A model generated the notes under the pieces. That model was not told the DNA's origin. It was given only the letters and a program-made list of their open reading frames with translations, and ran no database searches. From assembly GCA_025449645.1 (NCBI GenBank), contig JANWIY010000001.1:1-42224 (forward strand): a stretch of 42,224 bases of DNA, given 5' to 3'. Origin of the DNA: Chitinophagaceae bacterium (GTDB lineage: Bacteria; Bacteroidota; Bacteroidia; Chitinophagales; Chitinophagaceae). Made by a program: the position numbers and the translations under genes. Positions 6,870 through 42,224 of the stretch are shown here, piece after piece. The first letter of the stretch is position 1; every line of letters begins with the position of its first letter.

Positions 6870-8402
6870 ATGAAAAGATTTCTTCTTGCCTCCGTACCGT
6901 TTTTTTTCTCATTGATTGTATTCGGCCAGCCGAAATATGAATTCCGTGCTGTTTGGATTGCCACGGTTGAGAATATTGACTGGCCTTCGCGAGGGAATTA
7001 TAATACCTCATTACAAAAGGAGGAATTTATCCATCAGCTGGACATGCACCAGCGCAACGGCATGAATGCGGTTATCGTTCAGGTAAGGCCTGCCTGTGAT
7101 GCATTTTTCCCTTCGGCATTTGAGCCCTGGAGCGAATGGCTTACCGGAGTGCAGGGAAAAGCGCCGACACCATTTTATGATCCCATGGAATTCATGATCA
7201 GGGAAGCCCATAAAAGAGGAATGGAATTTCATGCCTGGTGCAATCCATATCGAGCTGTTTTCCGGATAAACCGGTCATCCATTGCTGTAAATCATATTAC
7301 GCGCGTTCACCCTGACTGGGTCATCACTTATGGTGATACCCAATACCTGGATCCCGGTAATAAGGAAGTTCAATTGTATGTGGTTTCGGTTATCCGGGAT
7401 ATGCTGAGGAGATATGATGTTGATGCCATTCATTTTGACGATTATTTTTACCCCTACCGAATCTCAGGAAAAGAATTTCCTGATGATGAATCTTTTGCAA
7501 AAGATGGAAACGGGATGGATAAAGAAACCTGGCGAAGGAGCAATGTGGATTCCGTCATCCTCATGCTGAGCCGTATGATCCATCAGGAAAAAAAGAACTG
7601 TAAGTTTGGCATCAGTCCGTTCGGCGTTTGGAGAAATCTCTCCAAAGATTCCCTGGGAAGTGATACACATGCCGGCCAAACGAATTATGATGATCTCTAT
7701 GCAGATATCTTGTTATGGTTGAAAAACGGATGGGTTGATTATATTGTACCGCAACTTTATTGGGAGTTTGAACAGAAAAACGCGCCATTCGGTGTTTTAC
7801 TGGATTGGTGGAGCAAACACAGTTATGGCCGTCCATGCTATATTGGATTGGGAATTTACCGGGCGGGGTCTAATATTTATTGGAGAAATAAGAATCAGTT
7901 ACCCCGGCAATTGGCGGCTATACGCAACACGCCCGATATCGGCGGCATGGTTTATTTCAGCAGCACTTCCTTTGAAAAAAATCCCTACGGATGGAACGAC
8001 AGTCTCCGGGAACATTATTATAATTATCCGGCGCTGATCGCGCCCATGCCCTGGATTGACAGTATAAAGCCATCCCCACCGCTGATAAAAATCATTACCA
8101 GGAAGGATTCCCTGATCATTCAATTTGAAAAAGGAAATGCAGCAGACACGCTGCGTGGATATGCAGTATATAAAACCACAGGAAAGTTACCTGCGGATGC
8201 TGCAGGAAATCTAAGTACGGATTCTGAAAGGGTATACATGTTTATTCCAAATAATGAAAATGCGCAACTCCGTTTCGATGTACAGGATTTGCTCATGCAC
8301 AAAGAGGAACGGTATTATGTTACCGCCATCAGCAGGACAAACAATGAAAGTCTGCCTATTCTACTTTATGCGTCGGGGCTGAATTTAACGGCCGCTCCTT
8401 AA
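6870..8402 (+). CDS. secreted GHL10-type glycoside hydrolase-like protein (YngK/DUF187 family)
   Basis: This 510-residue exported protein has a signal peptide in residues 1-20 (MKRFLLAS, hydrophobic core, VFGQ). The rest shows the glycosyl-hydrolase-like 10 (formerly DUF187) barrel: EFRAVWIATVENIDWPS at the start, NAVIVQVRPACDAFFPS, FHAWCNPYRA, and DAIHFDDYFYPY with adjacent acidic residues at the strand end expected for catalysis. It then shows FGISPFGVWRN and DYIVPQLYW. After about residue 400 comes a fibronectin-III-like segment ending at the C-terminus. Members are thought to act on cell-wall or exopolysaccharide glycans; the substrate is not known. A longer frame begins at a TTG (6858), but the ATG at 6870 sits directly before the signal peptide. 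Confidence 0.85.
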   Translation: MKRFLLASVPFFFSLIVFGQPKYEFRAVWIATVENIDWPSRGNYNTSLQKEEFIHQLDMHQRNGMNAVIVQVRPACDAFFPSAFEPWSEWLTGVQGKAPTPFYDPMEFMIREAHKRGMEFHAWCNPYRAVFRINRSSIAVNHITRVHPDWVITYGDTQYLDPGNKEVQLYVVSVIRDMLRRYDVDAIHFDDYFYPYRISGKEFPDDESFAKDGNGMDKETWRRSNVDSVILMLSRMIHQEKKNCKFGISPFGVWRNLSKDSLGSDTHAGQTNYDDLYADILLWLKNGWVDYIVPQLYWEFEQKNAPFGVLLDWWSKHSYGRPCYIGLGIYRAGSNIYWRNKNQLPRQLAAIRNTPDIGGMVYFSSTSFEKNPYGWNDSLREHYYNYPALIAPMPWIDSIKPSPPLIKIITRKDSLIIQFEKGNAADTLRGYAVYKTTGKLPADAAGNLSTDSERVYMFIPNNENAQLRFDVQDLLMHKEERYYVTAISRTNNESLPILLYASGLNLTAAP

Positions 8403-8443
8403 AGAGAGATTCCCTGTATCGCTCGAATATCTGCCCAATAGCT

Positions 8444-8451
8444 TAATTTTG
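8444..8451 (+). promoter_or_regulatory. -7 box of GH3 operon promoter
   Basis: TAATTTTG matches TAnnTTTG exactly and lies 25 bp upstream of the GH3 ATG at 8477. It probably drives the four-gene run that ends with mtgA. Confidence 0.5.
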
Positions 8452-8476
8452 AGGCAATCAATACCTCCCATTTTCA

Positions 8477-10018
8477 ATGGCGTTAATTGACGTACAATTA
8501 CCCAATTCATTGGCCAGGGCGTTGCGTTTGCCGAAGAAATCAGTCCGGCGTCAGCAATTGAAGGTTCTAAAAAAATTATTGAAAAAAGCGCGGTTTACTG
8601 AATTCGGACAGCAATTTCAATTCGACAGGATATTACTGGATAAGAATACAGTAGTAAGCTTTCAGAAGCACGTACCCGTTTATGATTACAGCAAGATCTA
8701 TAAAGAATGGTGGTACAAAACGCTGGAAGGGAAGCCTGATATCTGCTGGCCGGGCAAAATTAAATATTACGCTCTTAGCTCTGGCACTTCTGAAGCCGGA
8801 AGCAAATATATTCCGGTTACCAATGATCTGCTGCGCGGCAATCGGGTAGTGATGGTCCGGCAGCTGCTGAGTCTCCGTTACTATCAGGATATTCCAATGA
8901 AAAGCATCGGCAAAGGTTGGCTGATGATCGGTGGCAGCACGGCGTTGCAGAAAGGTCCGGGATATTATGAAGGTGATCTGAGCGGCATTTCCGCGAAGAA
9001 AGTCCCATTCTGGTTCTCGCCATTTTATAAACCCGGTAAACGCATTGCGAGAACAAAGGACTGGACCCGGAAACTGGAAGAGATCGTAGCGCAGGCCCCT
9101 AATTGGGATATCGGTTTTATCGTCGGTGTCCCTGCCTGGATCCAGATGTGCATGGAGAAGATCATTGAAAAGTATCAGCTGAAAAATATTCATGAGATCT
9201 GGCCAAACCTGGGTTTCTTCGTGCACGGTGGCGTTTCTTTTGAGCCCTATAAAAAAGGATTCGAAAAACTGCTGGGCAAGCAGATTACATATATTGAAAC
9301 CTATCTGGCTTCGGAAGGATTTATTGCTTATCAGGATCGTCAGGATGAACGGGGTATGCGCCTGGTGACCAACCAGCATTTGTTTTTTGAGTTTGTTCCA
9401 TTCGACACTAATAATTTTGACCAGGATGGAAACTTAGTAGATGAACCAGTCGCATTGCAGATAAATGAAGTGGAGGAAGGAAAGGATTATGCTCTCCTGA
9501 TCAGCACCTGTGCCGGCGCATGGCGATACCTCATCGGGGATACGATCAGGTTTACGAGCAAGGAAAAAAGCGAGATCATAATTACTGGCCGGACCAAACA
9601 TTACCTGAGCCTGGTGGGAGAGCATCTGAGTGTGGACAATATGAACCAGGCCATACAGCTGGTCAGCGAGGAACTGAATATTTCCATACCGGAGTTTACC
9701 GTCGCGGGTGTGCCACATGGTCTTTTTTTCGCACATCAATGGTATATTGCCAGCGAAACAGAGCTGGATCCTGAGAGCATCCGCAATAAGATTGATGAAA
9801 ACCTGAAACGACTCAACGATGATTATGCGGTAGAGAGAAAAAGCGCCTTAAAAGATATAGGAGTGAAAGTGCTGAATCCGGAAATCTTCATGGAATTTAT
9901 GCGGGCATCCGGCAAAGAGGGTGGTCAGCACAAATTTCCACGCGTGTTAAAAGGGAAAATGTTAAAGGACTGGTTGAATTTCCTTGATAATACAACAGAG
10001 AAAGTGCAGTATCCGTAA
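8477..10018 (+). CDS. GH3 auxin-responsive family acyl-acid amido synthetase
   Basis: This 513-residue protein belongs to the GH3 family, best known from plants, where enzymes such as JAR1 adenylate a carboxylic acid and join it to an amino acid. The ATP-binding loop YALSSGTSEAGSKYIP (98-113) is present, as are HGGVSFEPY, TYLASEGFIAYQ in the acyl site, WRYLIGDTIRFTSKEKSEIIITGRTKHYLSLVGEHLS (the hinge with the second ATP motif), and GQHKFPRVLKG near the C-terminus. Its length fits the bacterial members. The substrates of bacterial GH3 proteins are largely unknown. It is the first gene of an operon with a LysE-type exporter 12 bp downstream, which suggests the product or its amino acid might be exported (inference). 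Confidence 0.9.
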   Translation: MALIDVQLPNSLARALRLPKKSVRRQQLKVLKKLLKKARFTEFGQQFQFDRILLDKNTVVSFQKHVPVYDYSKIYKEWWYKTLEGKPDICWPGKIKYYALSSGTSEAGSKYIPVTNDLLRGNRVVMVRQLLSLRYYQDIPMKSIGKGWLMIGGSTALQKGPGYYEGDLSGISAKKVPFWFSPFYKPGKRIARTKDWTRKLEEIVAQAPNWDIGFIVGVPAWIQMCMEKIIEKYQLKNIHEIWPNLGFFVHGGVSFEPYKKGFEKLLGKQITYIETYLASEGFIAYQDRQDERGMRLVTNQHLFFEFVPFDTNNFDQDGNLVDEPVALQINEVEEGKDYALLISTCAGAWRYLIGDTIRFTSKEKSEIIITGRTKHYLSLVGEHLSVDNMNQAIQLVSEELNISIPEFTVAGVPHGLFFAHQWYIASETELDPESIRNKIDENLKRLNDDYAVERKSALKDIGVKVLNPEIFMEFMRASGKEGGQHKFPRVLKGKMLKDWLNFLDNTTEKVQYP

Positions 10019-10030
10019 AAAGAACAGCCC

Positions 10031-10675
10031 ATGATCGAAGCCATATGGAAAGGATTAGCGCTGGGTATTGTGCTTGCATTATCTGTTGGTCCGATTATTT
10101 TTACGATTATTAAACAAAGCCTTACCGCCGGTCATAAAGGTGGTTTCAGTTTTGTCACCGGCGTGTGGCTAAGCGATCTTATCCTTGTAATTCTTAGCAA
10201 CGTCTTTACGGAATGGGTTACGCGCCTGCTTGAATATAAGAAACTCATCGGCTATGGGGGAAGCAGCTTTCTGATCGCCCTGGGCGTTTATTTTTTCTTC
10301 TTTAAAAAAGTTCATCTGAAGTCCACTACCGGATCCGTGCACCTGGAGGATTTCACTGCGCGTGAAATGATAAGAACTTTCGCGTCCGGATTCATCATTA
10401 ATACCCTGAATCCGGGCGTACTGGCTTTCTGGCTGGGCAATGCCACGGTCCTGGCCCTCACCCATACATTAAAGCAGAGAATAATCATTTTTTCAACCTG
10501 CCTGATCATAAATATGGGCGCGGATGTAGGCAAGGTGATGATGGCTGGTAAATTGAGAAAACGACTGACGGTACATAATCTTAACATCATTAACAAAATT
10601 TCCGGCGGCATATTGATAGCTTTCGGAATAGCTTTGCTGTATGGGGTAATTTTCCTTGAAAATAAGATCAGGTAA
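10031..10675 (+). CDS. LysE family translocator
   Basis: This 214-residue inner-membrane protein has about six hydrophobic segments. The first, GLALGIVLALSVGPIIFTIIKQSL, carries the conserved G-x-x-x-GP pattern of LysE/RhtB exporters. The cytoplasmic loop FFKKVHLKSTTG and the later FASGFIINTLNPGVLAFWLG segment (the family's second conserved N-P motif) agree. Family members export amino acids and derivatives by proton exchange. It starts 12 bp after the GH3 stop, and its stop overlaps the next ATG by one base (TAATG), so translation is probably coupled. Confidence 0.88.
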   Translation: MIEAIWKGLALGIVLALSVGPIIFTIIKQSLTAGHKGGFSFVTGVWLSDLILVILSNVFTEWVTRLLEYKKLIGYGGSSFLIALGVYFFFFKKVHLKSTTGSVHLEDFTAREMIRTFASGFIINTLNPGVLAFWLGNATVLALTHTLKQRIIIFSTCLIINMGADVGKVMMAGKLRKRLTVHNLNIINKISGGILIAFGIALLYGVIFLENKIR

Positions 10676-11250
10676 TGAAATTGAACGGCCGGCCCTTCTT
10701 ATATGTTCCTTTGGGAAAAATTCTCCTCCTGCTTTCCTGCTTCGCACCCCTGCTCAGCTTTTGCCAGACGGATGTTCTGATTCTTCAAAAGGAGGGACGG
10801 AATATTAAAACCTACGCTCCCGGTCAGCACATTATTTTCGAAACCATTTATGAACAATGGTTCGACGGCACATTAACTGACTTAAGAAACGACAGCGTTT
10901 TTATTAATGGAATTCCTTTTCATTATAATGAAATCAAGACCATGCGGGTGGAGAGGGAAAAACTGAATTATATTCAGGACGGTACTTTCCTGATCATTGC
11001 AGGAGTCGGTGTACTTGTTTTGAATACGGTAAACGGTTTGTACCGGAAAGACAAGCCTGCAGAATGGTTTTCCACTACGGGATGGATTACCGCAGGCGCA
11101 TTGATCCTTGGTGGTATTTTGTTGAGAAGGGCAAGGACCCGTACTTTTCCGCTCGGAAAGAAATATGGTTTACACTATCTTGAAATTCATTCATACAAAC
11201 CGAACCCTGTTGCCCATCCCCCCGGGGATTCAACTCAACCAAAAGAATAG
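10675..11250 (+). CDS. membrane protein of unknown function
   Basis: I do not recognise this 191-residue protein. It opens with an apparent signal sequence (about residues 12-31, ending LSFCQ). A beta-rich soluble stretch of about 70 residues follows (including TYAPGQHIIFE, WFDGTLTDLRNDSVFING and EIKTMRVER). Two transmembrane helices lie at about 103-121 and 132-149, and a short basic, proline-rich tail completes it. The order suggests a periplasmic sensor-like domain held at the inner membrane. It is translationally coupled to the LysE gene and abuts mtgA with no gap (stop TAG directly followed by ATG), so it probably belongs to the envelope part of this operon. Confidence 0.75.
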   Translation: MKLNGRPFLYVPLGKILLLLSCFAPLLSFCQTDVLILQKEGRNIKTYAPGQHIIFETIYEQWFDGTLTDLRNDSVFINGIPFHYNEIKTMRVEREKLNYIQDGTFLIIAGVGVLVLNTVNGLYRKDKPAEWFSTTGWITAGALILGGILLRRARTRTFPLGKKYGLHYLEIHSYKPNPVAHPPGDSTQPKE

Positions 11251-11952
11251 ATGGCCATTAAAACCAAGGGATTGGTACCCCGCATCTGGAAATGGGTTAA
11301 ACGGATCCTGATCTTCCTGTTTTTCCTGCATTTTTTTTACCTGCTGATATTAAAGTGGATTAACCCGCCCGTCACGCTTACTCAGCTGAGCAGCCTTTTT
11401 CATGGATACGGATTGAAAAGAGATTATGTTTCCATGAATAATATTTCCCCATATGCCAAGCTCAGCGTGATTGCTTCAGAAGACCAGTTGTTTGCCGACC
11501 ATGACGGATTCGATTTTAAGTCGATTGAAAAAGCCATGAAGCATAATCAGAAAAGCAAGTCGTTGCATGGTGCCAGTACAATAAGCCAGCAGGTTGCCAA
11601 AAATATTTTTCTGTGGCAGGGCAGGAGCTGGATCAGGAAGGCACTGGAAGTTTATTTTACATTCATGATTGAGGAGCTGTGGGGGAAAAAGCGCATTCTG
11701 GAAATGTATCTCAATGTGAGTGAAATGGGGAAAGGCGTTTTTGGAATTGAGGCCGCGGCAAAATTTTATTTTAACAAACACGCAAGGTCCCTTTCACGAA
11801 GCGAATCGGCAATGATCGCTGCCTGTCTCCCAAATCCTAAAGTATTTACTGTGCGGCCAATGTCCAGGCGCGTTGCCGCACGTTATCCTTGGATCATGGT
11901 GCAGACGAATCACCTCCAGGATGATCCGGATATCATTAAATTATTGCAATAG
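11251..11952 (+). CDS. mtgA: monofunctional peptidoglycan glycosyltransferase MtgA (GT51)
   Basis: This 233-residue enzyme polymerises lipid II into glycan strands without a transpeptidase domain. One N-terminal transmembrane helix (about 18-34) anchors it in the inner membrane facing the periplasm. The GT51 motifs are intact: VIASEDQLFADHDGFD with the catalytic Glu77, GASTISQQVAKNIFLW, RKALEVYFTFMIEELWGKKRILEMYLN with the second catalytic Glu, GVFGIEAAAKFYFNK, and SESAMIAACLPNP. The ATG directly follows the preceding stop. Its last 12 bases overlap the end of the convergent NadR-type gene, so no independent terminator fits between them. Confidence 0.95.
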   Translation: MAIKTKGLVPRIWKWVKRILIFLFFLHFFYLLILKWINPPVTLTQLSSLFHGYGLKRDYVSMNNISPYAKLSVIASEDQLFADHDGFDFKSIEKAMKHNQKSKSLHGASTISQQVAKNIFLWQGRSWIRKALEVYFTFMIEELWGKKRILEMYLNVSEMGKGVFGIEAAAKFYFNKHARSLSRSESAMIAACLPNPKVFTVRPMSRRVAARYPWIMVQTNHLQDDPDIIKLLQ

Positions 11953-12474
11953 CAATTGGTCAACCACTTTAATGGCCCGGGCGAGTCTTTCATCATTGAG
12001 TCCGCTGATTTCAACCCAGTCTGTATCCTGATTTATCATAAGGTCTTTATAGATCCTGAAAAGTATCTGCCGGTTTACCAGGTCCGGATATTCTCTTAAC
12101 GCATCTTTCACCCAGGGCAGGTCTGTATTGCAAAGCAGGTAAAGATCGTAGCTCTTTTCAACGATCTGATCCAGGATAAAGGAATGGCATTTGCCGAAAA
12201 CAAATTCACACCAGACTTTCATTACATACATATCTGTATCTATGAATAAGACCCTGCCGGTTTCTTTTTTTAATGCCTCATCTTCGGCCTGCAATTGTCC
12301 TCGTGCAATCGCGATCAGGTCATCGTATTGGTAAGACCTCCCCAGGTTCAATAAATATTCCCTGGCAAATTCCGGAACCCAGCAGGTCTTGTAGTGATCG
12401 GCGAGCTGGCTGCAAAGCGTGCTCTTGCCCGTGGATTCAGGCCCGAGCACGACCACTTTTTTAGGCCGCGGCAT
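11941..12474 (-). CDS. nadR: NadR-type ribosylnicotinamide kinase
   Basis: This 177-residue P-loop kinase matches the C-terminal domain of NadR, which phosphorylates nicotinamide riboside to NMN. Walker A is VLGPESTGKST (9-19). WVPEFAREYL and the IDTDMYVMKVWCEFVFGK stretch (lid and Walker B region) are typical. The adenylyltransferase and HTH domains of enteric NadR are absent, so it would need a separate NMN adenylyltransferase. The ATG at 12474 lies 14 bases inside the end of pnuC, a coupled transporter-kinase pair: PnuC facilitates riboside entry and the kinase traps it. An in-frame ORF extends 14 codons further upstream, but the ATG at 12474 is directly before the conserved domain. Confidence 0.88.
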   Translation of the reverse strand: MPRPKKVVVLGPESTGKSTLCSQLADHYKTCWVPEFAREYLLNLGRSYQYDDLIAIARGQLQAEDEALKKETGRVLFIDTDMYVMKVWCEFVFGKCHSFILDQIVEKSYDLYLLCNTDLPWVKDALREYPDLVNRQILFRIYKDLMINQDTDWVEISGLNDERLARAIKVVDQLLLQ

Positions 12475-13069
12475 GCAGGATTTTTTTTCTCCAGGTAATA
12501 TAGCCCATAATGGCAAGAATCAGGAAAACGAGGTATTGAAAGCTAAGAAATACGAGGTGTTTGTAAAAATTAAGTGGTACAGAAGCCAGGTCGGTAATGA
12601 TCCACCAGGTCCAGTTATCCAGTTTCTTTTTATTCATCAGCCACATGCCTGTGAATGCGGCGGCTGAAGTAAAGCTATCTGCAATGGGCACGGTACTGTC
12701 AGTAAAATGTTTGAGTAAAAGGAAAAGGACCACCCAGCAAATGAAAAAGAAGACCAGGCTGTTTATCCAGTCTTTTGTTGAGGAGGCGGTAATCTTCAGC
12801 ACCTTCTTCCCCTGTTTTTTCTGAGCCCACATGATCCAGCCAATGATGCTCATTACCGTATAATAAAAATTTACAGAGGCATCTGCGTACAGGCCGGTAA
12901 TAATATAGAGATAGATGGAGATTCCCGTATTCACCATTCCGACAGGGTAAACCAGTATATGTTCCATCCGGGAAAATATCACACTGGCAATACCGAAGAT
13001 CACTGCAATGTATTCGAGCCGGGAGGTCCTTTGAATGTCTTCGATGAGCTGCTGGGCAATTTGATGCAA
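12461..13069 (-). CDS. pnuC: nicotinamide riboside transporter PnuC
   Basis: This 202-residue inner-membrane protein has about seven helices. RLEYIAVIFGIASVIFSR opens the first, and YPVGMVNTGISIYLYI, YYTVMSIIGWIMWAQ and NWTWWIITDLASVPLNFYK carry the W/N-rich substrate site of PnuC transporters. PnuC facilitates diffusion of nicotinamide riboside, or thiamine in the PnuT branch. No in-frame ATG exists between the upstream stop and the first helix, so a TTG at 13069 is the likely start. It overlaps the kinase gene, which supports NAD salvage over thiamine uptake. No TPP riboswitch is seen in the 80 bp upstream. Confidence 0.88.
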   Translation of the reverse strand: MHQIAQQLIEDIQRTSRLEYIAVIFGIASVIFSRMEHILVYPVGMVNTGISIYLYIITGLYADASVNFYYTVMSIIGWIMWAQKKQGKKVLKITASSTKDWINSLVFFFICWVVLFLLLKHFTDSTVPIADSFTSAAAFTGMWLMNKKKLDNWTWWIITDLASVPLNFYKHLVFLSFQYLVFLILAIMGYITWRKKILHAAA

Positions 13070-35526: not shown

Positions 35527-35664
35527 TTACCAATGTAAATAACGGAACCTTCCCGGTTGCATATCCACGGTATATGCCACCATCATGATTAAAATCAAAT
35601 ACCAGATAAAAATCAGGACAAACGCGTATGGTTTGGGTAAATATTTAAGGAGCCATCTATACAT
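35527..35664 (-). CDS. DltX-like membrane microprotein of 45 residues
   Basis: This small ORF starts MYRWLLKYLPKPY, has one hydrophobic helix at about 14-32 (FVLIFIWYLILIMMVAY), and ends GRFRYLHW. Its ATG overlaps the MBOAT stop as TGATG, so it is translationally coupled as the last gene of the operon. In Gram-positive dlt operons the small protein DltX has the same size and single helix. As I recall, it ends in F-x-Y-x-x-F, whose tyrosine receives the acyl group from DltB. Here the end is F-x-Y-x-x-W, with Tyr42 at the equivalent place. I infer an acyl-relay peptide for the MBOAT/SGNH pair. Functional identity is unproven, but position, topology and motif agree. Confidence 0.7.
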   Translation of the reverse strand: MYRWLLKYLPKPYAFVLIFIWYLILIMMVAYTVDMQPGRFRYLHW

Positions 35665-36776
35665 CAGTGAAAGATATGTTTAAAGTTTGTGCCCAGGGAG
35701 GCGATATTTTCAGAACCAATGAATATGCAACTAAAAGCAAACAAATGAAATACCCAGATCCTTCCAATCCAGCGGCCGACAGGATGGCCATTGATAAATC
35801 CTGAAACTGCAGGTGTCTTTTTTCTTGAATACACGGTAAGCAAAATCAAAACGGCCTGAACTGTTCCCCATACAATATATCTTAAAGATATTTCGTGCCA
35901 TAGCGCCAGCACCAGCATCGCGCTGATCAGGGCAATCCACCTGTTTCTCGATAAAGCAGCCAGCGGCTGGAATACATAGTCCCTGCACCAGGAGGATAAT
36001 GAGATATGCCATCTTCGCCAAAAGTCCTGCATATTGGTTGCCATGAATGGTGCGTTGAAATTTTCCATAACGCGTATTCCCCATACTAAACCGGCACCAA
36101 TCGCGAGATCGGAAAACCCGGCAAACTGAAAGTAGGTGTTTCCGGTAAAAGCAATCACTTCCAGATAAAGCCTGAGCGCATGGGAGCTGACTCCCCGCGC
36201 GACCTGGGTCAGCTGTGTGCTGAAAAGAAAATTCCCCAGAAAATCAATTTTAACCAATCCGTAGAGTATCCTTTCTAAACCATCTGAATATTGAGATGCA
36301 TTCCATTTCATTCTTCTCAGGCTGCGCTGAAAATCGGGCATCCTGTGTATGGGTCCGATCAGGATCACCGGCAAAAAAAGTAAATACTGGAAATAGGAAA
36401 GCAGTGCCGGCTTTTGCATTTCAGCTTTATAACATTCAAAGGCCACGTGAATCTGTCTGAAGGCGTAATAAGACAGACCCAGCGGAATCAGCCATTGCCC
36501 GGTGGCAAATTTCCATTTGTAAACGAGCAGCGGAAGAAGTGGCAAAAAGACCGTTACAATAACCTTAATGCGACCGGATTTAATGAAATCATATTTCCAA
36601 ACCAACCATTGAAGAAATGCTACGCTTAACATTAATAGCACAGATGTGGGAGCAATCCAGGCAAGCAGGATAAACGTGATAGCAGCCATGATATTGGCCT
36701 TCCAGTAATTCGGCACACGCCATATCAATGGTGATGTGAAGAGAATGACAGCAAGAAATAATGCCTGCAGTCTCAT
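35664..36776 (-). CDS. MBOAT family O-acyltransferase (DltB-like)
   Basis: This 370-residue inner-membrane protein has about ten helices. Key parts are FWRRWHISLSSWCRDYVFQPL with His257 and LALWHEISLRYIVWG with the catalytic His294, preceded by YFQFAGFSDLAIGAGL. The length and the order NYWKAN...FRQIHVAFECYKAE match DltB and AlgI-type enzymes that pass acyl groups across the membrane, with DltB-like size (about 400). The start is the ATG at 36776, which overlaps the SGNH stop as ATGA; a longer frame to 36809 would run through that gene. The stop overlaps the microprotein start. The acyl donor is probably the carrier domain of the adjacent ligase (inference). Confidence 0.92.
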   Translation of the reverse strand: MRLQALFLAVILFTSPLIWRVPNYWKANIMAAITFILLAWIAPTSVLLMLSVAFLQWLVWKYDFIKSGRIKVIVTVFLPLLPLLVYKWKFATGQWLIPLGLSYYAFRQIHVAFECYKAEMQKPALLSYFQYLLFLPVILIGPIHRMPDFQRSLRRMKWNASQYSDGLERILYGLVKIDFLGNFLFSTQLTQVARGVSSHALRLYLEVIAFTGNTYFQFAGFSDLAIGAGLVWGIRVMENFNAPFMATNMQDFWRRWHISLSSWCRDYVFQPLAALSRNRWIALISAMLVLALWHEISLRYIVWGTVQAVLILLTVYSRKKTPAVSGFINGHPVGRWIGRIWVFHLFAFSCIFIGSENIASLGTNFKHIFH

Positions 36777-37627
36777 AATTTTTTTAGTTGATCTACCATG
36801 GCGCGGCAAAAAAATTCACAGAAAATAGCACTTCCCTTATCGTTTAAATGGGCCTTGTCAAAAAAATAAGTACTGTCCAGCCTCAGGTGCGGGTCTGCAT
36901 AAACCAATGGGATTTTCCGCTGCAGGTAGTCAATGTTCCTGTCAAATTCTGCAGTATCAGGACTTTCCCATTTTTTCGATTCCAAACCTTTTTCAATGGG
37001 AAAATTCACCAGCAGGAAACGGGTACCGCCTGATTGCCATCGTTCAGCAAGATTTCTGAAAGTAACAAGTTCAGAGCTGTCGACCATTCCATTTCTCATG
37101 TCCCAAATGGGAAAGGAAAGGGCCTGTAGATATACAGGTCTTATATCCGGCTCATATGGGTTAAGTAATTTTTTAAATGCCAGCATATTCCTGAAAGTCC
37201 CTCCATACCTGGTCAGAATCGGAACGTCGGCGCCACGGTAAAAAAGCATATTCGCTTCGACGATGACGAGGCTCGGCTGCACCCGTTGAAGCACGGGCAT
37301 TTCTTCTATCATCGCAGATAAAATACCGGACTCCTGCCAGTATTTAATAACTTTTGTGCTTTGGCCCGTCTCTCTCTCGATGCAGGAGGCCAGGCTATCG
37401 CTATGCGAAAGCCCGGACTCAACCAGGGAGGTGCCGAATATGAGGACAACAGGCTCGTTATGGGCAGTCTGAAATCCATTCCTGACGAATGATTCCCTGC
37501 TCGCCCTTTCGTATAAACACACAGATCGGTCGGTAAAAATAATCCATGCAAACACAACGGCTACTGCCGGGATAAGTAAAATCCAGACAGCCAGTGGAGG
37601 AAATTTATTTTGGGCCGGATTATCCAT
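36773..37627 (-). CDS. membrane-anchored SGNH-fold protein (DltD-like)
   Basis: This 284-residue protein has one N-terminal transmembrane helix (about 12-31) and a periplasmic SGNH/GDSL domain. FGTSLVESGL provides the nucleophile Ser67, and FFDKAHLNDKG provides the Asp257-x-x-His260 pair. WESPDTAEF and VIVEANMLFYRG are other blocks. SGNH partners of MBOAT enzymes place the acyl group on the final polymer, as DltD and AlgJ/AlgX do. It is shorter than DltD (about 420). It overlaps the ligase gene by eight bases and MBOAT by four, so all are coupled. Confidence 0.85.
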   Translation of the reverse strand: MDNPAQNKFPPLAVWILLIPAVAVVFAWIIFTDRSVCLYERASRESFVRNGFQTAHNEPVVLIFGTSLVESGLSHSDSLASCIERETGQSTKVIKYWQESGILSAMIEEMPVLQRVQPSLVIVEANMLFYRGADVPILTRYGGTFRNMLAFKKLLNPYEPDIRPVYLQALSFPIWDMRNGMVDSSELVTFRNLAERWQSGGTRFLLVNFPIEKGLESKKWESPDTAEFDRNIDYLQRKIPLVYADPHLRLDSTYFFDKAHLNDKGSAIFCEFFCRAMVDQLKKL

Positions 37628-39428
37628 GCTTTACTTTAATCAACTCAGTCGCTTTCCGGATACTATTCATGGTGATCACTTCTGCAGTATTGAAGCGCAC
37701 TTTAAAATGGTCCTCGAGGGAAGTGATAAAACTGAGATGTGCCAGGGAATCCCATCCTGCAACGGTTTGGGAAGTATCGTGTATGGAAAGCCGGGTCACT
37801 GGCACCTGGAAAGATTCTGATGCAATGGAAAGTACATCGTCTTCAAAATCTCCGGTATTTACCAGGTTCCTGGGTTGAAGGTTCAATAATTGATCGCGGA
37901 GCGCATTTAGCTGCACTTTGCCGGATACACCTTTAGGGAGCGAATCGACAATAAATATCCGGTTCGGCACTTTCTTTTCTTCGAGGGATTGGCGGCATTC
38001 TTCAATGATCTCCGTCCCTGTCAGATTTGATCCGGGTTTCAACACGACTGCTGCGACCAGTCTCTCGCCAAATACTTCATCGGGCATCCCTACGGCACAG
38101 GCTTCTGAAATGTCCGGATTTCTCAGAATGCATTCGGTCACCTCTTCCGGTTGAATATTAATACCACCGGAAATGATCAGATTCTTTTTTCTCCCGCGTA
38201 TCGTAACAAATCCATCAGCATCCTGCGAAGCCAGGTCACCACTCAGAAACCATCCGTGAGCAAAAGCTTCATCTGTCAATACAGGATCTGCCCAGTAATT
38301 TTTCATGATATGATCGCCGCGAAGACAGAGCTCACCGGTTTGCCCGGTCGCAATTTCCTCGAACTGATCATTTACAATTCTTATTTCGCAGTCCACTGGT
38401 TTGCCGACAGAGTATTTGCGGTAGGTTCCAGTCAGCGGTCCGCAAAACAGACTGCCGGCAACGGTCTCCGTTAGTCCGAATACATTTGAAACAGGAACTT
38501 TAAATACTGTTTCAAATTTATCCCACAAGCTTGGTTCTAGATGTGCCGAAACAGAAATCAGGGCTTTGAATTCCGGGTATTGAAAACTGTCTTCATAATT
38601 TTCAGCAAAAGGCAGGACCATATTAAGCATGGCAGGAACTACAAAAACATGTGAGATATTATTCGCATATCCATAGTCGAGGAATTCCTGAATTTTTTCA
38701 ATGGCAAACTTGAAGGGCTTGTGCCAGGTGCATCCGGTGTACGCTGCCAGCACGGGCCCCTGAATACATCCGTCGGCATGACAGAGAAAAAGCAGGTTCA
38801 TCAACCGGCTGTTCTCATTCATTCCGTATACTTTTTTCAGCGTAGCGAGATGCGCTGCCAGATTTCCCTGTGTAATGGAAACACCTTTGGAATCTGCAGT
38901 GGTGCCTGAAGTGAAAATAATATAGGCGATAAGGTCCGGTGCAGGAGTTGCAGGAAATTTACTGACGGGAGTTGCTTTTTCCAGTGCGGTTAAATAATCG
39001 TTCGAAGACGATTCAGTTTTATTCTTCTTAAGAAATTTTCCGAGGAGTCCGGTGCCGGAAACACTTTCCTTCTGAAAAGTGAGCACGGGAAGTGATGAAG
39101 GAAGTTGCCAGTGCTCCAGCGTTTCCTTATCCGCTATGATATATTTCGGGTTGGTACGGCTGATGGTGCTTTTGGCCCTGGGTGCTTTTGATTCGGGATC
39201 GGCGATCACTACGGTAATGCCATTGGCAAGTGCGGAAATAAAAAGCGCGCTCATTTCGGGTTCATCAGCAACGGCGAGTACGATTTTGTCGCCGGACTTA
39301 ATACTCAATGATTCAAAAAGTCCGGAAATCTGCTTGATCTTTTGCTGAAGCCAGCCATAGGTAAAAGCTTTCTGCCGGGTCTGCAGAAAAGTTTTATCAG
39401 GGTTTTGGGAATAGACATTTTCTAGCAT
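37620..39428 (-). CDS. adenylation enzyme with fused C-terminal acyl-carrier domain
   Basis: This 602-residue protein has an ANL-superfamily adenylation domain (1-515). It shows IIFTSGTTADSKG (171-182), NVFGLTETVAGSLFCGP, FLSGDLASQDADGF, and the C-terminal lysine in LPKGVSGKVQLN (Lys504). A carrier domain follows (about 525-600) with AGWDSLAHL, whose Ser561 would carry phosphopantetheine. DltA and DltC are separate proteins in Gram-positive bacteria; here they are one chain. The A-domain looks like an acyl or aryl activator rather than a D-alanine enzyme, so the cargo is unknown. The ATG at 39428 lies seven bases after the previous stop (TAA), and it overlaps the SGNH gene by eight. Confidence 0.85.
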   Translation of the reverse strand: MLENVYSQNPDKTFLQTRQKAFTYGWLQQKIKQISGLFESLSIKSGDKIVLAVADEPEMSALFISALANGITVVIADPESKAPRAKSTISRTNPKYIIADKETLEHWQLPSSLPVLTFQKESVSGTGLLGKFLKKNKTESSSNDYLTALEKATPVSKFPATPAPDLIAYIIFTSGTTADSKGVSITQGNLAAHLATLKKVYGMNENSRLMNLLFLCHADGCIQGPVLAAYTGCTWHKPFKFAIEKIQEFLDYGYANNISHVFVVPAMLNMVLPFAENYEDSFQYPEFKALISVSAHLEPSLWDKFETVFKVPVSNVFGLTETVAGSLFCGPLTGTYRKYSVGKPVDCEIRIVNDQFEEIATGQTGELCLRGDHIMKNYWADPVLTDEAFAHGWFLSGDLASQDADGFVTIRGRKKNLIISGGINIQPEEVTECILRNPDISEACAVGMPDEVFGERLVAAVVLKPGSNLTGTEIIEECRQSLEEKKVPNRIFIVDSLPKGVSGKVQLNALRDQLLNLQPRNLVNTGDFEDDVLSIASESFQVPVTRLSIHDTSQTVAGWDSLAHLSFITSLEDHFKVRFNTAEVITMNSIRKATELIKVKHG

Positions 39429-39435
39429 AGGAGGT

Positions 39436-42224
39436 TTATATTTTGAAATAATGATCGAGCAGGGTCTTGCGAAGCACTTTATTGTGATTGCCCCGGGGTA
39501 TCTGGTCCACGGCTTCTATAAGTAACGGTACCGCATATGCGCCAATTCGTTCCATGATTGTTTTCTTAATGGCTGCGATGACAGGGGCCGTCTGTGCGCT
39601 GTCTCCCGGAACAAAAAACAACGCAATGGATTCCCTTTCTTTTTCCAGGAGCGGACAAAGCGCCCAGTCGCTCAATTCCGGCATCTGCTGTAAAACTTCC
39701 TCCACGGCCATAAGCTCTATTCTTTCGCCGGAAGGCAGTTTAATAATATCTGATAATCTTCCATAAAGGCTAATGCTGCCATCCGGATATTGCGAGGCCA
39801 GGTCCTTTGTGTGAAACCATCCATTGTGGAGGCATGCAGCAGAAGCTTCGGGATTACGGTAGTATCCTGTGAATACGCCTGACCCATAAATGCAGAGCTC
39901 ACCTTTTTTGCCGGCTGGCAATTCATTGCCGGACTCGTCAATAATTTTTACAAGGCAATCAATTGGCTGTCCGATGCAGTAATCGTCTGTTGCCTTAAAG
40001 CCCGGAGGCTCGGCAATGCAGATGCCGGATGTTTCCGTGAGCCCGTAATAATTAAGGAGCGGAACGCCGGTTTGATTTCCCCATTTCATTCTTAACTCAG
40101 AAGGCAGCGCATTGCCCGTGCATAAAGCGAGGCGGATGCTATGACGCGAAGGCGCAAGTTGGGAATCGCGGGAGGCAAGTAATAATTGTTTAAAGAATGA
40201 AGGGTTCGCAGTGAGAATCGTAATATTTTCCTCAAGGATGAGTTGAACGAGTTGATAAATATCTTTTCCTTTTTTCGGGATCAGGCAGCAGGCGCCCACT
40301 TCAGCCATGCAGACAGTAGCCTGGCGCAGGCCGCTCATGGTCTCCAGGGAGCCGAGGGCGAAATAGCGATCGGTCTTTTTCCACTGATATGTTTCTGTCA
40401 TCGCTCTTCCGGAGCGGATCAGTTGCGCATGCGAAAGCGGAATCCCTTTGGGATTACCTGTTGATCCGGTGGTCCACAGTATGACGGCTATGTCACCCGG
40501 ATCGGGACCTGTAGCGGGTTCCAGGTGGTTTTCGGCATTTGACGAAAGCCAGGAATCAAAAGAGAAATCAGATTGGTATCCGGGCTCATTGATCAGATCC
40601 GTCATGATCATTTTACGGATTCCTGCATTCTTAAGTTGGGCATGAATTGCCGGATCCACCAGCGCCATGGAAGGGGAAAGCTGTCTAACGTATTCCTGTA
40701 TGCGAAGCGCAGATTCCTTGGGCGATATCGGAACAATCACAATGCCCATGGTCACGGCTGCCCAGAAAACCAGCATGATCTCCGGATGAAGGTCAGCACA
40801 AATCAGCAGCTTGTCGCCTTTGCGAAGCCCGTCCTGCAAAAGCGCCTTTTGAACCAGGGAGATAAGTTCGTCCGCGTCACTGTATTTGAGCGATTCCTCT
40901 CCGCATTTGATCCAGGTATCATCGGCGAAAAATGTCGCCGCCTGTTTCCAGAGTGAGGCCAGATTTTCTTCTTTTCTTTCCAGGATGTATTGCTGGTGAC
41001 CGAGTAAGGTCTGCAGACGGAAACCTGCTTCATCAACCGGAACAACCTGTGCAAGTTCAAGTTGAAAAGCAGTTTCCAGGATCTGCTGCATGTCCTCTTT
41101 GTCAATATTCGTTTTTCTTCTTATTTCATTAAGCGGGTAACCATGGCCGGCCCAATAAAGCACTTCGCGTGTTTGCCCGTCGACCGTTATCCCGATACTA
41201 TCGCTGACGCGTTTGGTATATACTGAATGTCTTTCCAGTAATTCATCTATGAGCGGACCGTAGGTTTTGGTATTAAACTCAATGCAGTGCGTCAATTCGT
41301 TGATATGCAAAAATGGATTCTGGAGCAGGTAAGATTTTTCCCAGTTCTGTTCGTGACCGCGCCAGGGTTTCAGCACGGGTGCGCTATCGGCCGGAAGCCA
41401 GGCCACGCAACCGTTGTAGTCGGTGTGTGCAGGCTCGGAAACAAGCAATTTTTCTTTATCTGTGCTGCGGTCGTTCCAATTAAAATTTCCCGGCTCCGAC
41501 ATGACCCATCCTTTTCTATGGGTCAGCGGCCCGAGTTGTGAAAAAAGAAAATCATAATCGTTCCCATGGAGCTGACGGCAGCCGCGGTCAAAATACGGAT
41601 CGGGCTCATTGTTCGTCAGGTGCACATGCGGAAAAAGAATTGGAGCAGTTGGTTTGGCAATTCGATTTATTTCCGAAAGCAGGTCGGGCTGGTTGAAGCG
41701 GTGCAACAGATCCATTCCAACGATAGCGGAAACGCTGTGGGTTTCCAAAGGGAAAGGACGGAGAAAATCCGCGAACATTACGGTATGATTAGCCCTTCTT
41801 TCACGTGACATCCAATAATGAAAACCTTTATAGCCGAGAATATCCTTATCCGCCTCCCATACGGTGATCACGTGCTGATCCGGAAACCATCCGGCGAGCA
41901 TGGAGGCCGTCCATCCGCTACGGTCCCAGAGATTCAGGATTGTATCACCCGGTTGCAATTGCTTCCGGATATAGTCGACAAACGGGAACAAAGCTTTGAA
42001 ACATTCATTGAAAGGCTGAAAGCAGGCGTAAATATCAAGAGATGGAAAGCGTCCCTTCTGACGAAGGAACTGCCGGTACTTATATTTATTACGGGAAAGA
42101 TAGTTTTGGAGGGAGTCCAGTTCATCACCGTGGGAACGCAGGATCAGGTCCTTTTTATCGCCAAAATGCAGGTGGCCGATAAACGGATAAGACGCAGATT
42201 GTTCAGGGATTAGTTTCCAGCCAG
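39436..42224 (-). CDS. methyltransferase-adenylation fusion protein, 5' end outside the window
   Basis: The open frame continues to the right edge of the window, about 77 codons beyond an internal TTG at 41991, so the true start is not visible. The visible part is about 929 residues. The first third resembles a class I SAM methyltransferase: YIRKQLQPGDTILNLWDRSGWTA, HVITVWEADKDILG, then AIVGMDLLHRFNQPDLLSEINRIAK. The SAM loop is degenerate (LNLWDRSGW instead of LDxGxGxG). A helical linker follows, then an ANL adenylation domain with ILWTTGSTGNPKG, NYYGLTETSGICIAEPP, FHTKDLASQYPDGS and a terminal NKVLRKTLL. There is no carrier domain in this chain. It precedes the carrier-bearing ligase by seven bases. 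Confidence 0.8.
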   Translation of the reverse strand, partial: GWKLIPEQSASYPFIGHLHFGDKKDLILRSHGDELDSLQNYLSRNKYKYRQFLRQKGRFPSLDIYACFQPFNECFKALFPFVDYIRKQLQPGDTILNLWDRSGWTASMLAGWFPDQHVITVWEADKDILGYKGFHYWMSRERRANHTVMFADFLRPFPLETHSVSAIVGMDLLHRFNQPDLLSEINRIAKPTAPILFPHVHLTNNEPDPYFDRGCRQLHGNDYDFLFSQLGPLTHRKGWVMSEPGNFNWNDRSTDKEKLLVSEPAHTDYNGCVAWLPADSAPVLKPWRGHEQNWEKSYLLQNPFLHINELTHCIEFNTKTYGPLIDELLERHSVYTKRVSDSIGITVDGQTREVLYWAGHGYPLNEIRRKTNIDKEDMQQILETAFQLELAQVVPVDEAGFRLQTLLGHQQYILERKEENLASLWKQAATFFADDTWIKCGEESLKYSDADELISLVQKALLQDGLRKGDKLLICADLHPEIMLVFWAAVTMGIVIVPISPKESALRIQEYVRQLSPSMALVDPAIHAQLKNAGIRKMIMTDLINEPGYQSDFSFDSWLSSNAENHLEPATGPDPGDIAVILWTTGSTGNPKGIPLSHAQLIRSGRAMTETYQWKKTDRYFALGSLETMSGLRQATVCMAEVGACCLIPKKGKDIYQLVQLILEENITILTANPSFFKQLLLASRDSQLAPSRHSIRLALCTGNALPSELRMKWGNQTGVPLLNYYGLTETSGICIAEPPGFKATDDYCIGQPIDCLVKIIDESGNELPAGKKGELCIYGSGVFTGYYRNPEASAACLHNGWFHTKDLASQYPDGSISLYGRLSDIIKLPSGERIELMAVEEVLQQMPELSDWALCPLLEKERESIALFFVPGDSAQTAPVIAAIKKTIMERIGAYAVPLLIEAVDQIPRGNHNKVLRKTLLDHYFKI

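Follow-up and report, generated by a model that had tools for sequence, protein, structure and literature searches.

The locus described here raises the question of whether an open reading frame of 45 codons, lying against the end of an MBOAT gene in a Chitinophagaceae genome, is a gene at all, and whether its product might carry acyl groups in the way that DltX does. It was found in the window, by which is meant the whole 42,224-nucleotide stretch of DNA that was analysed. A preliminary description of this DNA had reported a 45-residue reading frame that ends in GRFRYLHW, overlaps the MBOAT gene as TGATG (the MBOAT stop together with the microprotein ATG) and encodes one membrane helix, and each of these points was borne out, with a single hydrophobic segment at residues 15-33 that has a Kyte-Doolittle mean of 2.58. 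The strand, absent from that description, is the minus strand, read from 35664 to 35527; a plus-strand reading of 35527..35664 was rejected, as these coordinates define no open frame there. Pfam gave no match for the microprotein, and the NCBIfam search returned a single noise match at E 0.094.

The microprotein gene is the last of an operon that reads, on the minus strand, methyltransferase-like plus ANL protein, ligase-carrier fusion, SGNH-fold protein, short MBOAT and microprotein, with the following features:

35527..35664, minus strand: 45-aa single-helix microprotein, proposed acyl shuttle, with an ATG start and a TAA stop
35547-35530, minus strand: C-terminal hexapeptide FRYLHW of the microprotein
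35541-35539, minus strand: Tyr42 codon of the microprotein
35662..35666, minus strand: TGATG, the MBOAT stop overlapping the microprotein ATG, with putative translational coupling
35664..36776, minus strand: short DltB-like MBOAT, 370 aa from the ATG at 36776
35897-35895, minus strand: conserved His of WHE in the MBOAT
36773..37627, minus strand: SGNH-fold protein with an N-terminal membrane helix and a putative DltD/PatB-like role
37429-37427, minus strand: codon of Ser67 (GTS) of the SGNH-fold protein
36859-36848, minus strand: DxxH of the SGNH-fold protein
37620..39428, minus strand: ANL (AMP-forming) ligase fused to a C-terminal carrier domain
37748-37746, minus strand: codon of Ser561 in GWDSL, the proposed phosphopantetheine site, judged from the domains and the conserved motif
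39436..42224, minus strand: methyltransferase-like domain plus ANL ligase (PF00501), the frame open to the contig end

The start of the MBOAT was placed by comparison with relatives, as the ORF caller lists 381 aa from a TTG at 36809; numbered from that TTG, H268 and H305 are invariant in 7 aligned rows. The protein matches PF03062 at 9.1e-24, and its sole NCBIfam match at E<=0.1 is TIGR04091 (DltB) at 3.8e-48, with 164.6 bits against a cut-off of 375 bits. Among PDB entries, only DltB structures are related to it at E<=1 (6bug at 3e-26). Assignment to the MBOATs that carry a tyrosine motif fused at their own C-terminus was considered and rejected, since this MBOAT ends in NFKHIFH and has no such tail.

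For the SGNH-fold protein, which has no Pfam match, the fold is supported by a predicted structure (pLDDT 87) whose Foldseek matches are mostly SGNH/GDSL hydrolases and designed scaffolds; among the 50 matches listed, PatB stands at rank 48 and DltD does not appear. The G-x-S and D-x-x-H of this protein are invariant in 12 of 12 aligned rows. The carrier domain of the neighboring ligase was detected as PP-binding at E 0.0043 (17.7 bits vs a cut-off of 20.8), and its serine, within GWDS, is present in 11 of 11 ligase fusions, that of Sulfitobacter included. No carrier domain was found in the methyltransferase-ANL protein, which runs off the contig; a model of its N-terminal part (pLDDT 77) resembles SAM methyltransferases.

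Once duplicates had been removed, the microprotein was present in all 12 of the Bacteroidota short-MBOAT loci examined (the window plus 11 others), each time with a length of 45-47 aa and a strongly hydrophobic segment, beside a DltB-like MBOAT of only 366-385 aa. One of the 12 belongs to Flavisolibacter ginsengisoli DSM 18119, a named type strain, which makes culture tests feasible. Four peptide residues are invariant throughout, namely M1, Y22 in the helix, F40 and Y42, so that M1 aside, nothing but F40 and Y42 is fixed outside the helix. The preliminary description had named loss of the reading frame or of its terminal motif in related loci as the outcome that would count against it, and what was found is that the frame, F40 and Tyr42 are kept in 12 of 12 loci. 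Its full F-x-Y-x-x-[FW] tail did not hold, the last residue being W in 10 peptides, L in 2 and F in none (FRYLHW, FHYLQW, FRYLQW twice, FQYVGW, FRYLGL, FRYFGL, FRYLNW, FRYMQW, FRYIGW, FRYLDW and FNYLHW); the peptides of loci L044 and L045 have tails not closed by F, W or Y.

Linkage within the operon is close. In 11 of the 12 loci the distance between the MBOAT stop and the start of the peptide is -20 to +10 nt, and in genome G820 the order is MBOAT-SGNH-peptide, so that the peptide follows the SGNH gene and not the MBOAT; the peptide of locus L127 (the same locus as L089) lies after the SGNH gene. The ligase-carrier gene accompanies 10 of the 12, the exceptions being G1353, where it is absent from the 18 kb examined, and G449; the SGNH gene accompanies 11, G449 being the exception, as only an MBOAT and the peptide are visible there. 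In that locus (L073, 1287-2441), an ORF on the opposite strand overlaps the N-terminal part of the MBOAT, which cannot be aligned with its relatives, and the locus may be broken at the MBOAT start.

Signs of selection were looked for in the peptide itself. In the closest four sequences pN/pS is 0.29-0.40, and in a second, more diverged four it is 0.36-0.58, values that are rough because synonymous sites are near saturation; the closest four differ at 7-8 of 45 second codon positions vs 21-27 third positions. The peptide N-terminus is more positive than the C-terminus in 11 of the 12 (equal in L130), which favors a predicted C-out orientation. From the sequence comparisons, then, the microprotein is a real gene.

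Its distribution was followed through several sets of genomes, with the window's own genome counted each time. Short MBOATs proved rare in these sets: they were found in 4 of 58 relatives (the same 4 among 33 same-genus genomes) and in 2 of 4 genomes from the class of G449. The draws from the family (2 of 394), phylum (3 of 395), class (4 of 395) and order (4 of 396) scored at most four first-look candidates per genome, and these counts may be low. A seven-row MBOAT model, which excludes G1097, G820, G927, G1353 and G1314, gave short MBOATs at least 399 bits in the class and order draws and all other listed MBOATs 207 bits at most. A scan of named genomes yielded the Flavisolibacter name and added Chryseolinea; its 6 loci comprise 1 fused MBOAT and 5 of the short family, including that of a thirteenth genome, G019, whose MBOAT is cut by the contig end and which stands outside the 12. 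When a profile of the peptide was run against 316 genomes, strong matches (E 5.4e-19 or lower) came only from the window's genome (G000), G440 and G449, and the other 5 genomes listed lay at E 0.0015-0.0087; as those three are all rows of the profile, the search shows absence elsewhere and not independent discovery.

Many MBOATs carry a similar tail themselves. A set of 104 distinct MBOAT ORFs, each at least 300 aa long with a profile E<=1e-10 and collected as search matches, not as a random sample, was sorted by a fused pattern, [FP]-x-Y-x-x-[FWLM], and a downstream peptide pattern, F-x-Y-x-x-[FWL], both chosen after inspection, the downstream stretch extending 1.3 kb or to the locus end (66-560 nt in a few loci). 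The tail is fused at the MBOAT's own C-terminus, with no downstream peptide in the scanned stretch, in 86; it is missing from the MBOAT and found on a separate downstream peptide in 13 (the 12 short ones and that of genome G615); 5 have neither, and none of the 104 has both. All 12 short MBOATs are without the fused motif, and the window's genome also encodes two other MBOATs, of 505 and 494 aa, both ending in FIYFQF. The MBOAT ORFs of L094, L096, L100 and L106, at 843-925 aa, have the usual fused FIYFQF tail plus extra sequence.

Of the five with neither, four are Dlt-type loci and one is an operon on a Sulfitobacter plasmid. Two of the Dlt-type loci, from Klebsiella and Niallia, have their peptide upstream of the MBOAT, and in the other two (L077 and L078) no peptide was seen in the parts inspected. 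The Klebsiella electrica operon (L076, plasmid NZ_CP041250.1, 4436-8488) lies near several IS transposase genes and is annotated DltD-hypothetical-MBOAT-AMP-binding-carrier; its hypothetical protein, of 40 aa and ending in FEYQKF, is likely DltX. The operon on the Sulfitobacter pontiacus plasmid NZ_CP049347.1 (L079, 2372-6199), from an alphaproteobacterium, is composed like those of the Bacteroidota and holds a ligase-carrier gene, a gene that is SGNH-like by position and a 353-aa MBOAT, together with a 53-aa ORF that overlaps the MBOAT stop by 4 nt and is missing from the PLSDB gene table. That ORF ends in IIYIDLQEAQ, a diverged tail that has no Phe and in which the motif is not at the C-terminus.

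A further case is provided by G615 (L051, at G615:C3, reverse strand), in which a 372-aa tailless MBOAT is followed by a 322-aa protein and then by a 58-aa peptide that ends in FFYSDF and overlaps the gene for the 322-aa protein. The idea that L051 is a truncated fragment was rejected, as the short MBOAT frame is open. The 322-aa protein has no Pfam match; on visual inspection it contains a GNS/GHLN pattern, which together with its position makes it probably SGNH-like. This locus resembles the window operon in its short MBOAT, probable SGNH gene and separate peptide with a similar tail, but its MBOAT groups with the fused ones, its peptide is unlike the microprotein outside the tail by eye, and the 1.5 kb upstream shows no same-strand ORF for a ligase or a carrier. 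It suggests a second, independent split of MBOAT and tail peptide, and such a split supports the tail as a detachable module. Among all 4722 ORFs of 30-60 aa in the collected loci and the window, 38 end in F-x-Y-x-x-[FWL], a tally in which repeat copies of a locus count separately; 36 of them belong to the Bacteroidota microprotein family or are the Klebsiella or G615 peptide, and the remaining 2 (in L040 and L129) lie outside those.

The relationships among the MBOATs themselves were examined in two midpoint-rooted trees, each with 30 of the 82 fused MBOATs then known, neither of which gives the nearest pair of groups. The more careful tree has 46 rows, with G615 added and the long-branched Sulfitobacter and Klebsiella sequences removed. 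It separates a clade of the 12 short MBOATs (100/98) from one of three Bacillota DltBs (100/100) and from one of the 30 fused MBOATs, at whose base G615 lies (99/96). A quick tree of 47 rows, Sulfitobacter and Klebsiella included, recovered the same short, DltB and fused groups with lower support.

Among the best 60 of the 86 solved relatives of the ligase, the closest is an oxalate-CoA ligase (2.5e-59) and DltA does not appear; blastp against three dlt-operon ligases gave E 4e-11 to 2e-15. In 11 of 11 ligase homologues, H-x-D-G is found where the dlt-operon ligases have F-D-L-S. The cargo is probably not D-alanine, because the ligase resembles oxalate/acyl-CoA ligases; the invariant Asp of H-x-D-G aligns in the column of the F-D-L-S Asp, so the substrate may yet be an amino compound. 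Two of the operons have class-III aminotransferase genes next to them, at L074 (G440, 8324-9700) and L129 (G1353, 9978-12875), the latter also with an aldehyde dehydrogenase gene, and these neighbors are a possible clue to the acyl group.

Taken together, the reading preferred here, with a probability of roughly 0.8, is that the 45-aa peptide would act as the DltX-like acyl shuttle of a carrier-fed MBOAT/SGNH machine for envelope acylation. The ligase-carrier fusion would activate a carboxylic acid and keep it thioester-bound to the phosphopantetheine of Ser561, as its domains and GWDS motif imply; from there the short MBOAT would carry the acyl group through the inner membrane to Tyr42, in the periplasmic C-terminus of the microprotein; and the acyl-Tyr tail would hand it on to the membrane-anchored SGNH protein, at Ser67, and this protein would esterify an envelope glycan. 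The microprotein would supply in trans a helix and hexapeptide of the kind fused to the C-terminus of most of the MBOATs examined. This shuttle role is favored by the presence of the peptide in 12 of 12 loci, the invariance of F40 and Y42 and the complementarity with the fused motif, as well as by retention of the peptide despite the altered gene order in G820, with the fused MBOATs of the same genome as a control, the invariant SGNH residues, the carrier Ser and the closeness of the MBOAT to DltB. Counted against it are the lack of DltX homology beyond the tail, the W or L in place of F, G1353 without a ligase-carrier gene, G449 with only a peptide and an MBOAT of unaligned start, the Sulfitobacter tail without Phe, and the position of DltD outside the 50 Foldseek matches listed. 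In these Gram-negatives, the findings suggest an unusual branch of surface acylation machinery, probably with another acyl group. The bolder proposal of a third MBOAT/SGNH lineage, fed by a carrier with a non-D-alanine (possibly methylated) acyl group and equipped with its own trans shuttle, a swappable module joined and split repeatedly, is given an even chance.

Other explanations have to be weighed. The one that comes closest in content is a true but diverged Dlt system, with the peptide as a DltX orthologue and D-alanine or another amino acid as the cargo for a Gram-negative glycan; it shares the shuttle mechanism with the preferred reading and differs in cargo and descent. Its attractions are that the MBOAT best matches DltB models, that carrier, SGNH protein and shuttle are all present, that the invariant ligase Asp falls on the F-D-L-S Asp column, and that the Klebsiella electrica plasmid has a dltD-peptide-MBOAT-ligase-carrier operon in a Gram-negative. 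It is nonetheless considered unlikely, as the ligase is far from the three dlt-operon ligases in sequence, in its H-x-D-G and in its nearest relative, and is fused to the carrier, an extra methyltransferase-ANL protein is present, the short MBOATs form their own clade apart from the Bacillota DltBs, and the microprotein does not match PF12459.

Another proposal would make the peptide a structural or assembly subunit, with Tyr42 packed in the lumen unacylated and the SGNH protein acylated directly by the MBOAT. An invariant Y22 within the helix would fit such a subunit, but the restriction of invariance outside the helix to F40 and Y42 (besides M1), the complementarity between separate peptide and fused motif, and the acylation that PMC12148441 describes for this tail in PatA, where it is fused to the MBOAT, all point the other way and leave this proposal distinctly improbable. 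As for a chance ORF, or a functionless remnant of a decayed extension at an MBOAT C-terminus, the small size and missing Pfam match are what could be said for it; purifying selection, near-constant length, tight operon linkage over wide divergence and a change of gene order without loss make it scarcely credible.

How far the shuttle extends what is known can be judged from several papers. PMC12148441 describes the DltX relay and, for PatA, a Gram-negative peptidoglycan O-acetyltransferase, auto-acetylation of a C-terminal Tyr in a motif fused to the MBOAT; PMC5541007 mentions a DltX in Gram-negative species. The preliminary description saw its novelty in a relay reaching beyond teichoic acids, and that part had been anticipated in print; what stands as new is the split, carrier-fed Bacteroidota version, a lineage with a separate putative shuttle and a carrier, of which no report was found in the open-licence full-text literature.

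Comparison with DltX began with the family model. The microprotein had no match to PF12459 (DltX) at E<=0.1, a search of the window's genome gave one noise match elsewhere (E 1.14), and hhalign, with a DltX alignment that has just two rows, gave a probability of 0.4% (E 0.16); homology to DltX beyond the tail was not demonstrated in these searches. The PF12459 failure is weak evidence, because in the controls Niallia DltX matched at 5.7e-16 and the Klebsiella operon peptide missed too. Like DltX, the microprotein is a separate peptide of some 40-50 aa (45-47 aa here vs about 50 aa) with a single predicted N-in/C-out helix and a C-terminal F-x-Y tail whose Tyr is invariant in 12 of 12. Its tail is closed by W or L, in contrast to the Phe of DltX (FXYXXF, given as FLYFGF in PMC11035591), and since the PF12459 match and the terminal Phe both failed, it is not classed as a DltX member. 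With Dlt systems at large, the operon shares a short MBOAT without the fused motif, an SGNH partner and a carrier protein, but its ligase is probably not DltA-like and is fused to the carrier, an extra methyltransferase-ANL protein is present, the peptide gene comes after the MBOAT or SGNH gene, and the hosts are Bacteroidota, as opposed to Bacillota and a Klebsiella plasmid.

The PatA/PatB system belongs to the same MBOAT family and has the same tail logic, and the fused type occurs in the same phylum and even in the same genome. The difference is that in fused MBOATs the motif is on the enzyme itself (457-558 aa, plus the four ORFs of 843-925 aa), and that the PatA type uses an acyl-CoA donor with no carrier or microprotein, according to PMC12148441. 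That 2025 paper also states that neither a carrier protein nor a DltX-like microprotein is part of the non-Dlt MBOAT/SGNH pathways, in contrast to the operon family described here, which has both, together with a ligase that is probably not DltA-like. The result is a natural two-piece MBOAT shuttle, in which the tail can be mutated or swapped independently, with the enzyme untouched.
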